A stretch of 64,000 bases of DNA from Rhodoluna sp. (lineage in GTDB: Bacteria; Actinomycetota; Actinomycetes; Actinomycetales; Microbacteriaceae): contig JAHEBZ010000006.1 of the NCBI GenBank assembly GCA_024641985.1, positions 1 to 64,000 on the forward strand. The letters are read 5' to 3'. Both the position numbers and the translations under genes were made by a program. Shown here piece by piece: positions 58,106 through 64,000 of this stretch. Positions within the stretch are counted from its first letter, which is position 1; the number at the start of each line of letters is the position of its first letter. The notes below the pieces were generated by a model. That model made no database searches and was not told where the DNA came from. It saw only the letters and a program-made list of their open reading frames with translations.

Positions 58106-58187
58106 GGCTAGTTACCCAAGCGGCCAAAGGGATCTGACTGTAAATCAGCCGGCTCAGCCTTCGGGGGTTCGAATCCCTCACTAGCCA
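58106..58187 (+). tRNA. tRNA-Tyr (GTA)
   Basis: GGCTAGTTACCCAAGCGGCCAAAGGGATCTGACTGTAAATCAG...GGTTCGAATCCCTCACTAGCCA, long variable arm. Confidence 0.96.
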
Positions 58188-58198
58188 CATACGGGAAG

Positions 58199-58238
58199 CC
58201 CCGCCAACACAGGCATGTAGCAGTGTTAGCGGGGTTTT
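58199..58238 (+). terminator. Intrinsic terminator after tRNA-Tyr
   Basis: CCCCGCCAACAC...GTGTTAGCGGGG then TTTT (one mismatch). Confidence 0.8.
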
Positions 58239-58396
58239 CTGGTACTCGGTGTGCATTTTTATGTGCTAGCGCGGAGATTGCTTGCCTTCCCGCGACAAAG
58301 GGTTGAGAGAAATAGTTGTCGCTAGGTGGAAAAGTCTCGCCTCTGAGTTAGCGTTATTCAACGCGTTCATAGTTGTGTAAATTGGGGGACATTGAA

Positions 58397-61412: not shown

Positions 61413-61474
61413 TTACAGAGCCGTTCGAAACTTGTCAATACCCATTTTGGAAGGGGTTCTAGTAGAGTGGAGCC

Positions 61475-62002
61475 ATGGAATTCGTATTCAAGCTTGAATC
61501 TGCGAACGTAACTGACGGCGAGCGAGTTGATTTTGGCCCTTTCGACCACGAGACAGGTACACAGCAGTCGATACCCGTCAGCCTTACTCGTAAGGTCGTT
61601 TACCCCGACCTGGAGGTCTCAGCACTTGTCGTGTGTGTGTTCACGGGCGACAAGCTTGAGATTCAGAACATTACTGTCAGCCAGAATGGCAAATTCGTAT
61701 CCACGAAAGTCCTTACCCAGCTGGCCTTACCTGCCGTAATTCGCGCAATTGCTATTGAGGTCATTCCGAATTCCCACCTGTGGGCACAAGTGAATGGTGA
61801 GCAGATGGGCAAGCCTGAGGGGCCAGCGTTCCTTGCGCAGGTCTATTGGTTTGAGCATGTGAGTTGGGGAAGTCCACGAGGCAGCATCATGAATTACATG
61901 AATTGGTCAAGAACAAACGCTAATTTTCATATCTCAAAAATCGCTCGCCAATTTGGGCTTCCAGGTTCCCACGCGCAAAGGCCAGCGAACTCGTCGAACT
62001 AG
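61475..62002 (+). CDS. Hypothetical protein, no family recognised
   Basis: Long open frame in an intact divergent arrangement; stop overlaps that of the convergent gene. Confidence 0.6.
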   Translation: MEFVFKLESANVTDGERVDFGPFDHETGTQQSIPVSLTRKVVYPDLEVSALVVCVFTGDKLEIQNITVSQNGKFVSTKVLTQLALPAVIRAIAIEVIPNSHLWAQVNGEQMGKPEGPAFLAQVYWFEHVSWGSPRGSIMNYMNWSRTNANFHISKIARQFGLPGSHAQRPANSSN

Positions 62003-63006
62003 CTTGCTTCTAAATTTCGTCCTGGCTGAAATGAAAGACGGTAGCAGTCGTCAGTATCTTTATAGATGCGAACAACGTTGCTGCCAAAACTTTGCAGATG
62101 GTCCCTTTGAATGAAAGCCCCAGACGGCAGGCCTAGTTTTTTTCTAAAGTACTTCCCGAGTATTGAGTTATCACTCGGAGTTTCCAACGCCTTGTCGCCT
62201 TCTTGAGCAACGGTGCAGATGAAGGCCTCGCCATCATCAGTGATTACCTGAAAGTGCACGCCTTTTTCAGGAAAGAATTTCGCTTTGGCAATACCAGAGG
62301 GGATTGGTATGTAGGCCTGGTCTGGATTGCGACCCTCGCGTTGGCCCCAATTCAAGCCAGATTTTTGATGAACTTCACCTTGGTCTGAAGCACGACTCAT
62401 GACAAGCGGAAGGTCAACGAATGCCGTTGCTGAAATTGAAGTTGTAGGTTCCTCAACTGAGAGTGAAGTGTGCACTTGTTCATCAAACAAGTCAATAAAG
62501 TCAGCAATGTCGGGACTCTTGTAGCTAATCCCTCCCCGCGAGGAAGCCATCACGTAGTCAAAGCCCGCAATTGGGTCCATTGGCAAACAAACTTCTTTGT
62601 GGCTCAAAGAAGCTTCTGAAATACCGAAGCCCATTTGTGTGTAGTTGCTAGACCCGAGATACGCTTCCATCGGACCAGAGTCATCACACCAGACATAGAT
62701 TTTAGAATGGTTGGATGTGCCTCTAGTGCTCAGGCTGCAGTTGAAGGAACGGTTGCCAATCTGCCGAGGAATCGATTGAAGGCCGAGTAGCGTATTACGA
62801 CTCAGTCCATCGCGACCTGACATTCCAATGTGCAGGTCAATCGACAAATCAATTGCGAGCTCTTTAGCGGCAATTTCGAAATGCTTTGTGACCATCGACG
62901 CTGAGGCGTATCCAGAGAGCACGAAAAGCTCTCTGGCTCCGCGTTTAGCTGGTTCAAGTAAAACTCTCTCAAAGAGATTTTCTGTAATCAGCTGGCTTGT
63001 GGGCAT
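61999..63006 (-). CDS. NgoFVII-like phospholipase-D-superfamily restriction endonuclease
   Basis: NHSKIYVWCDDSGPMEAYLGSSNYTQMGF (HxK...GSSN PLD motif); directly downstream of a C5-methyltransferase gene. Confidence 0.8.
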   Translation of the reverse strand: MPTSQLITENLFERVLLEPAKRGARELFVLSGYASASMVTKHFEIAAKELAIDLSIDLHIGMSGRDGLSRNTLLGLQSIPRQIGNRSFNCSLSTRGTSNHSKIYVWCDDSGPMEAYLGSSNYTQMGFGISEASLSHKEVCLPMDPIAGFDYVMASSRGGISYKSPDIADFIDLFDEQVHTSLSVEEPTTSISATAFVDLPLVMSRASDQGEVHQKSGLNWGQREGRNPDQAYIPIPSGIAKAKFFPEKGVHFQVITDDGEAFICTVAQEGDKALETPSDNSILGKYFRKKLGLPSGAFIQRDHLQSFGSNVVRIYKDTDDCYRLSFQPGRNLEAS

Positions 63007-64000
63007 TATTTCGTTTGGTCTTTCAGCGCAGAATCAATGTATTTCTTCATGTTTGATTCAACCGATGGATAGCTCTGCCCTACAAGAGTCTTAAAGAGAG
63101 CCTCAAACACAACTTGGGCTCCGCGGACTGGGACAGCCATGCCCACTTGTTTGCGAACGCTTTCCTTGGTTCCTTCGAAGACAAAATCATCAGGGAATGT
63201 CTGGAGCCTTGCGCGTTCGCGGTTAGTTAGTGCGCGAGGTTCTTCATAGTGGTAAACATGCGTGCCGCCTCCACCTGAGCCAGTGACTGTGTAAGAAGGT
63301 TTGTCAGGGTGCAAGCGCTTGTAGATTTGGCTTATCTTTGCCCCCTTTACATTTAGTTGCAATTCAGCTGGAAGGTTTGCATTGAAAGCATTCTCTCCAG
63401 GCTTGATGTGCTTTAGCCGCTCAACGACTTGCGGAGCCTGCCGAGTAGGTTCATGGTTGGCCGCCGATTCTGAGATTCGTGGATTAGTCAACGCATTCTT
63501 AGATGAAGTGTCGATGTGGCTATACAGTTCGGGACTTGGAACCTTAAATTCCAAGTTCAAGTCTTTTCGAATGCCGACAATCAGAATTCGGTGACGAGCT
63601 TGAGGCAACCCATAGGTCTCAAATTTGTAAAGATGAGGAACCAAAACGTAGCCGCCGTGCTTTCCTGCCTTTGACAAGTCGCGCAGGATTGTCAAAAGGG
63701 CTGAGCCTTCGTTGCTACTTGAAAGCCCACCTACGTTTTCAGCTACAAACCACTTCGGGGAGTACTTGTTTAGAACGTCGACACCATAGGTGTACAGGGG
63801 GCCGAACGTTCCGTTCACGCCCTTTTTTTGACCAACTTGGCTGAAGTCGTTGCACGGGAAACCGAAAGCAAAGCCATCGACTGGGCCTAGTTTTGAAATC
63901 TTAAGGGTTCGTACGTCTTCGCAGAAAACAGAGTCATTTGAGGCTCCTGGAATGTTTTTGATGTAAGTCTCGCAGGTTGACTGGTCATAGTCATTTGCCC
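63006..64000 (-). CDS. DNA (cytosine-5) methyltransferase, 5' end beyond window
   Basis: GFAFGFPCNDFSQVGQKKG and WFVAENVGGLSS motifs, GLPQARHRILIVGI; frame stays open to 64000, upstream of the ORF-track start. Confidence 0.92.
   Translation of the reverse strand, partial: ANDYDQSTCETYIKNIPGASNDSVFCEDVRTLKISKLGPVDGFAFGFPCNDFSQVGQKKGVNGTFGPLYTYGVDVLNKYSPKWFVAENVGGLSSSNEGSALLTILRDLSKAGKHGGYVLVPHLYKFETYGLPQARHRILIVGIRKDLNLEFKVPSPELYSHIDTSSKNALTNPRISESAANHEPTRQAPQVVERLKHIKPGENAFNANLPAELQLNVKGAKISQIYKRLHPDKPSYTVTGSGGGGTHVYHYEEPRALTNRERARLQTFPDDFVFEGTKESVRKQVGMAVPVRGAQVVFEALFKTLVGQSYPSVESNMKKYIDSALKDQTK

Follow-up and report, generated by a model that had tools for sequence, protein, structure and literature searches.

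A Probable 14.4-kb Integrative Element with Exchangeable Cargo, Including a Restriction-Modification Set, at the tRNA-Tyr Gene of Rhodoluna sp.

The tRNA-Tyr gene near the end of the window (the whole 64,000-nucleotide stretch of DNA analysed, corresponding with identical coordinates to bases 1-64000 of the 75,023-bp contig C4 in a 1.38-Mb genome) is followed by a 14.4-kb integrative element, which probably belongs to a small modular family with exchangeable cargo, including a restriction-modification set. Its anatomy and the empty sites of relatives establish integration into the 3′ end of tRNA-Tyr, while its gene content points to mobility and restriction. The original prediction of a tRNA-targeted mobile defence island is supported by these data, and its mobility is suggested by sibling elements that pair this backbone with different cargo.

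Borders and Insertion Site

The borders of the element are marked by the following features.

58106-58188, + strand: tRNA-Tyr(gta), the integration target, intact after insertion (ARAGORN)
58167-58189, + strand: attL core, GTTCGAATCCCTCACTAGCCACA
58192-58241, + strand: terminator-like hairpin, element-borne, directly behind attL (fold -31.9 kcal/mol, z -6.4)
C4:72537-72559, beyond the window: attR, a second exact copy of GTTCGAATCCCTCACTAGCCACA (23/23 bp)

A search of the genome itself with the tRNA region found the tRNA-Tyr 3′ end repeated exactly over 23 bp at a distance of 14,370 bp, which far exceeds chance across 14 kb, and the exact copy at C4:72537-72559 therefore gives an element of 14.37 kb. 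By alignment, the similarity between attL and attR extends to 29 of 33 bp. The far end had been expected outside the window, with a repeat of the tRNA 3′ end to be sought there, and the repeat was indeed found 14.37 kb away, with eight further genes on that side; the suggested att repeat thus exists (23/23), but the 22-mer offered for it carries one mismatch, its first G being an A in attR. The element lies entirely within contig C4, with 2.5 kb of chromosome beyond attR; that contig breaks off within a gene identified from its sequence as icd (isocitrate dehydrogenase), the rest of which opens contig C3. Comparison of terminator positions in relatives places the native tRNA-Tyr terminator behind attR. 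The element restores the end of tRNA-Tyr and supplies its own transcription terminator. The predicted rejoined attB runs from tRNA-Tyr into AAAACCCCAGCCCTCC, and the predicted circle junction reads GGCGTTCAGAA-GTTCGAATCCCTCACTAGCCACA-TACGGGAAGCCCC.

Just beyond attR sits a HigB/HigA toxin-antitoxin pair (C4:72643-73245; L003 15144-15746), which was not found at the corresponding position in the relatives inspected. This pair and a secreted protein (contig positions 72643-74751 together) were weighed as possible element genes but excluded, since they lie outside attR and behind the native terminator.

The unoccupied arrangement was sought by joining the two flanks and searching 47 same-genus genomes with the product. 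A continuous match across the junction was obtained in 28 of them, tRNA-Tyr leading straight into a native-type terminator, so that the comparison with empty sites proposed earlier came out in favour of insertion, and the same genes do not occupy the site in all relatives. The junction is identical over 115 bp in one genome (G009, L021), and in another (G030, L023) a single att copy is present and icd starts about 180 bp past tRNA-Tyr, which is the uninterrupted arrangement. LacI and YajQ, upstream of tRNA-Tyr, are kept in most of these loci, which are therefore the same locus. Some of the 28 genomes, having an additional att copy further downstream, may hold other inserts even though the junction itself is empty.

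Other inserts were observed at this locus. In another species, two att copies at this tRNA-Tyr enclose 4.85 kb of DNA (L035, G007:C10:20000-36000, positions 5248-10116) that encodes a DRT4-type defence reverse transcriptase (PADLOC Drt4 E 4e-98) together with a regulator-like gene but no integrase, and the tRNA-Tyr locus is therefore a defence hotspot. A 1.27-kb att-bounded insert in a complete genome (L034, G017, 6971-8260) encodes an HTH protein, a membrane protein and nothing else; three att copies spaced 169 and 171 bp apart and followed by terminator-like hairpins are found in G001 (L036, 6464-6824), and a third att copy stands behind the sibling element of G379 described below (L123, 18013). 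Short att-bounded, integrase-less pieces accumulate at tRNA-Tyr. Elsewhere, a fragment of a related integrase with a homologue of the element's 175-aa orphan beside tRNA-Ser(gga) (L125, G006, 9392-10496) is a decayed relative of the element at another tRNA gene.

Backbone Genes

The backbone consists of an integrase, an excisionase-like protein, a primase-polymerase with a helicase, a second HTH protein and three orphan core genes, and it is rare (3 of 68 same-genus genomes).

59883-61118, - strand: tyrosine integrase (PF00589 E 4e-25, PF14659; phrog_1 integrase E 9e-68)
61108-61320, - strand: excisionase-like HTH protein (TIGR01764 E 2e-5, HTH_17 E 1e-4)
61475-62002, + strand: 175-aa orphan, core gene of the element family
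68477-68896, + strand: orphan (contig C4, beyond the window)
69031-69540, - strand: orphan (contig C4, beyond the window)
69527-70840, - strand: helicase (contig C4, beyond the window)
70828-71793, - strand: primase-polymerase (contig C4, beyond the window; PF09250; phrog_1156, phrog_11515)
72096-72272, - strand: HTH/AlpA-like protein (contig C4, beyond the window; Phage_AlpA E 0.02, weak)

The genes named in the original prediction behind tRNA-Tyr (Mrr-like nuclease, integrase, excisionase, orphan, PLD enzyme and C5-methyltransferase) are all present, the two excisionase-like matches both falling below curated cut-offs, and the integrase is transcribed toward tRNA-Tyr as had been stated. Two gene starts were corrected: the longest integrase frame opens at GTG 61166, and its start is probably ATG 61118, as that of the Mrr gene is probably ATG 58397, each behind a Shine-Dalgarno-like stretch. 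The excisionase-like gene overlaps the start of the integrase gene. Divergent from these two is the gene for the 175-aa orphan, a protein with homologues 74% identical in G379 and 55% identical in G006, with no match in Pfam, PHROG, PADLOC or NCBIfam and a single-sequence structure prediction of pLDDT 38.

The actinophage primase/polymerase has its counterpart here in two overlapping genes, for the helicase and the primase, each matching one half of it, with DxD and P-loop motifs conserved. Compared with proteins of Gordonia and Mycobacterium phages, the helicase shows 25-27% identity; nothing above 27% identity was found in phages, and viral contigs gave no relative of the helicase, nor, among those searched, of the primase or the 175-aa orphan. 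These data bear on a less likely alternative, in which the element is a phage satellite, induced by a helper, replicated by its primase-helicase, packaged in helper particles and carrying cargo against competing phages. The integrase, the AlpA-like HTH protein (Phage_AlpA E 0.02), the phage-type primase-polymerase/helicase, the size of about 14 kb and the lack of structural genes would suit such a satellite, but no capsid, terminase, capsid-remodelling or interference gene was recognised in the element with Pfam and PHROGs, and the lack of relatives in viral contigs likewise argues against it.

Sibling Elements and Exchangeable Cargo

A sibling element of 15.2 kb occupies the same tRNA-Tyr in another species (G379, L123; attL 1610, attR 16817). 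In this sibling the order of integrase, Xis, 175-aa orphan, 139-aa orphan, p169, helicase, primase and HTH genes is kept at 50-84% identity (integrase 58%, Xis 54%, helicase 84%, primase 72%, HTH 67%, in addition to the 175-aa orphan given above). Cargo would be exchanged at two slots, one beside attL and the other between the 175-aa and 139-aa core orphan genes. The first holds an Excalibur/Ig secreted protein in the sibling versus an Mrr-type nuclease here; the second holds an HKD-SNF2 protein and a type IIG-like methylase in the sibling versus a five-gene restriction-modification set here. The backbone and site shared by the two species document the swap of a whole defence cassette within one fixed slot of a small element. 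The p169-helicase-primase part was also found between tRNA-Arg repeats in G005 and G467 (another genus), in elements with a different integrase and other cargo, where helicase and primase show 70-85% protein identity and about 75% at the DNA level over 2.7-3.0 kb. Beside a 139-aa remnant in G467, a short piece resembles by eye the N-terminus of HKD-SNF2; it gave no match in the PADLOC scan.

The cargo of the present element is as follows.

58397-59794, + strand: slot 1, Mrr-type PD-(D/E)XK nuclease (PF04471 E 9e-12)
61999-63006, - strand: slot 2, NgoFVII-type restriction endonuclease (PF09565 E 1e-22, PF20731 E 2e-34)
63006-64112, - strand: slot 2, C5-cytosine methyltransferase, cut by the window end at 64000 (PF00145 E 5e-69)
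C4:64211-65512, + strand: slot 2, ParB-fold protein (beyond the window)
C4:65534-67357, + strand: slot 2, SNF2 ATPase (beyond the window)
C4:67359-68093, + strand: slot 2, NOV_C nuclease (beyond the window)

Two hydrophobic stretches lie next to each other at about residues 170-225 of the Mrr-like nuclease, which is therefore likely to be membrane-anchored. The NgoFVII-type endonuclease combines a PLD nuclease domain (HSK motif) with a B3 DNA-binding domain, and its HxK is conserved. In the SNF2 protein Walker A (GAGKT), DEAH and motif VI are kept, as is the D-ExK of NOV_C, and the frames are intact; an ARAGORN call of a tRNA-Trp within the SNF2 gene (L003:8049-8147) is false. The ParB-fold protein has no Pfam match. 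Structural modelling of its homologue from G124 (44% identical; pLDDT 82) gave matches to KorB, ParB and Noc (Foldseek prob 1.00), and by this model the protein of the element has a ParB-type N-terminal fold. Its GNTR motif (GxxR box), whose conserved Arg would serve to bind NTP, retains an NTR that is invariant in 40 homologues.

The ParB-SNF2-C5-Methyltransferase Set in Other Genomes

All five slot-2 genes recur in conserved order in G124 (C5-methyltransferase 71% identical, PLD/B3 52%, SNF2 50%, ParB 44%, NOV_C 36%), and the same set is present in a distant Puniceicoccaceae genome (L038). Searching reference genomes with an alignment of ParB proteins returned 186 relatives, of which 80, mostly from Streptomyces and other actinomycetes, were kept; together with the loci found first, 84 loci were inspected. 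These loci are mutually related, and their counts are therefore not independent events: SNF2 follows ParB in all 84, a C5-methyltransferase lies no more than 7 kb from ParB-SNF2 in 79, and p227, a conserved wHTH/CxxC protein of about 225 aa, stands beside ParB-SNF2 likewise in 79 (L031-L116). Directly behind SNF2 (n = 61) the gene is NOV_C in 42 cases, and among the rest are a C5-methyltransferase (9), Vsr (2) and NaeI (1). The PLD/B3 enzyme occurs in only three of the loci; most relatives are without it and have p227 instead, and the ParB-SNF2-NOV_C trio may therefore have a job of its own. An assignment of p227 as an HNH enzyme was rejected, as the alignment shows CxxC...CxxC and a winged helix with no HNH catalytic His, and p227 is accordingly not called a nuclease.

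No relative of the ParB protein was found in phages or viral contigs, and five distant ones were found in plasmids. PADLOC 2.0 has no named system corresponding to the ParB-SNF2 set and recognises single proteins only, and a system of ParB, SNF2, DUF3883/NOV_C and C5-methyltransferase was not found described in open-licence papers. Although the set is widespread, annotation tools give only scattered helicases, partition proteins and restriction enzymes. Assignment to DISARM was rejected because its DrmD/DrmA profiles matched SNF2 only in part and DrmB (DUF1998) was not found, and so was BREX, whose core proteins were likewise not found.

Because the five cargo genes form two divergent transcription units, it is solely their neighbourhood that suggests cooperation of the PLD/B3 enzyme with the trio. 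It is accordingly conceivable, though rather unlikely, that the cargo is two separate systems, the C5-methyltransferase with the PLD/B3 enzyme and an independent ParB-SNF2-NOV_C defence module, as the divergence of the units and the occurrence of the trio without the PLD/B3 enzyme in most relatives would allow. Against this stand the C5-methyltransferase near the trio in 79 of the 84 loci, the recurrence of the PLD/B3-methyltransferase-trio grouping in G124 and in the Puniceicoccaceae genome, and the dependence of known PLD/B3 relatives of the CglI kind on an ATPase partner (PMC4267653).

Beyond the preferred reading of one restriction-modification set, a broader interpretation is put forward tentatively, at somewhat less than an even chance. 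In Actinomycetota, the ParB-fold protein, as an NTPase, and the SNF2 motor would form a common, unnamed NTP-dependent restriction chassis that almost always goes with a C5-methyltransferase and is fitted with interchangeable nucleases (PLD/B3, NOV_C, Vsr, NaeI) or the wHTH/CxxC protein, and small self-replicating tRNA elements would spread this chassis and exchange it for other defence sets in a fixed slot.

Proposed Mechanism

Based on the families represented, the restriction set would act as follows. Briefly, the C5-methyltransferase would mark host DNA and the PLD/B3 endonuclease would recognise its unmethylated site; the SNF2 ATPase would be a DNA motor that licenses cleavage, like the DEAD-Z1 ATPase in CglI/NgoAVII; the ParB-fold protein, a putative NTPase, would clamp on DNA or gate the complex; and NOV_C would cut as an additional nuclease. 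R.CglI and R.NgoAVII, which are of PLD and B3 composition, do not cleave unless their ATPase is present and NTP is hydrolysed (PMC4267653); communication along DNA has been described for CglI complexes (PMC5737866), and ParB-fold proteins bind CTP, ATP or GTP (PMC12704722). If the ParB-fold protein indeed gates a SNF2-driven nuclease, ParB-type NTP switches would gain a role in immunity.

As for the element itself, the tyrosine integrase with its excisionase-like partner inserted it, as a circle, at the tRNA-Tyr 3′ end and would presumably excise it again, whereupon replication of the circle would fall to the phage-type primase-polymerase together with the helicase. Since recognisable packaging and conjugation genes are lacking, transfer would depend on a helper phage, a helper plasmid or natural DNA uptake. 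An integrative mobilizable element moved by the conjugation machinery of another element is improbable: Xis, Int and a Prim-Pol replication protein do occur too in actinobacterial integrative elements such as AICEs (actinomycete integrative and conjugative elements), but neither a relaxase nor an FtsK/TraB-like translocase could be recognised with Pfam and PHROGs anywhere in the 14.4 kb. Equally improbable is a fixed, decayed island of old entry, now immobile and with only its restriction set under selection, for which short att-bounded remnants at the locus or related fragments elsewhere in many relatives (L034, L036, L125) could speak, but against which stand the intact integrase, Xis, primase and helicase frames and the identical att cores.

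Comparison with Known Systems

AICEs combine Int, Xis, a Prim-Pol replication protein and a tRNA target. The element shares all of these, and differs in that no FtsK/TraB-like translocase was found in it. With PICI-type phage satellites it has in common the integrase, the weakly matched HTH/AlpA-like regulator (E 0.02), the primase, the small size and the defence cargo, while packaging and helper-interference genes are not recognisable; packaging genes are, however, not required in every satellite type. By description it resembles Tycheposons of planktonic bacteria, tRNA-anchored tyrosine-recombinase cargo elements of streamlined aquatic bacteria (PMC10872708), from which it differs in bacterial phylum and in its mainly defence-related cargo.

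Among restriction systems, SNF2/HNH/B3-containing R-M operons with MORC ATPases have been described (Iyer et al. 2008, PMC2292703). These resemble the present set in their SNF2 helicase and exchangeable nucleases, and some include a B3/RAV-type DNA-binding protein, whereas the element has a ParB-fold protein in place of the MORC/MutL ATPase. The closest characterised relative of the restriction set is CglI/NgoAVII (PMC4267653, PMC5737866). Both comprise a C5-methyltransferase, an R protein whose PLD and B3 domains fall in the same Pfam families, and an SF2 ATPase as a protein of its own, although the PLD/B3 enzyme of the element matches the NgoAVII enzyme in the PDB only weakly in sequence (E 0.007). 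The ATPase is of SNF2 type with no Z1 domain matched, in contrast to DEAD-Z1 in CglI/NgoAVII, and two proteins, the ParB-fold protein and the NOV_C nuclease, are additional. If gating of an SNF2-driven nuclease by the ParB-fold protein is demonstrated, the CglI/NgoAVII mechanism would be one case of a broader design in which a motor is combined with interchangeable nucleases.
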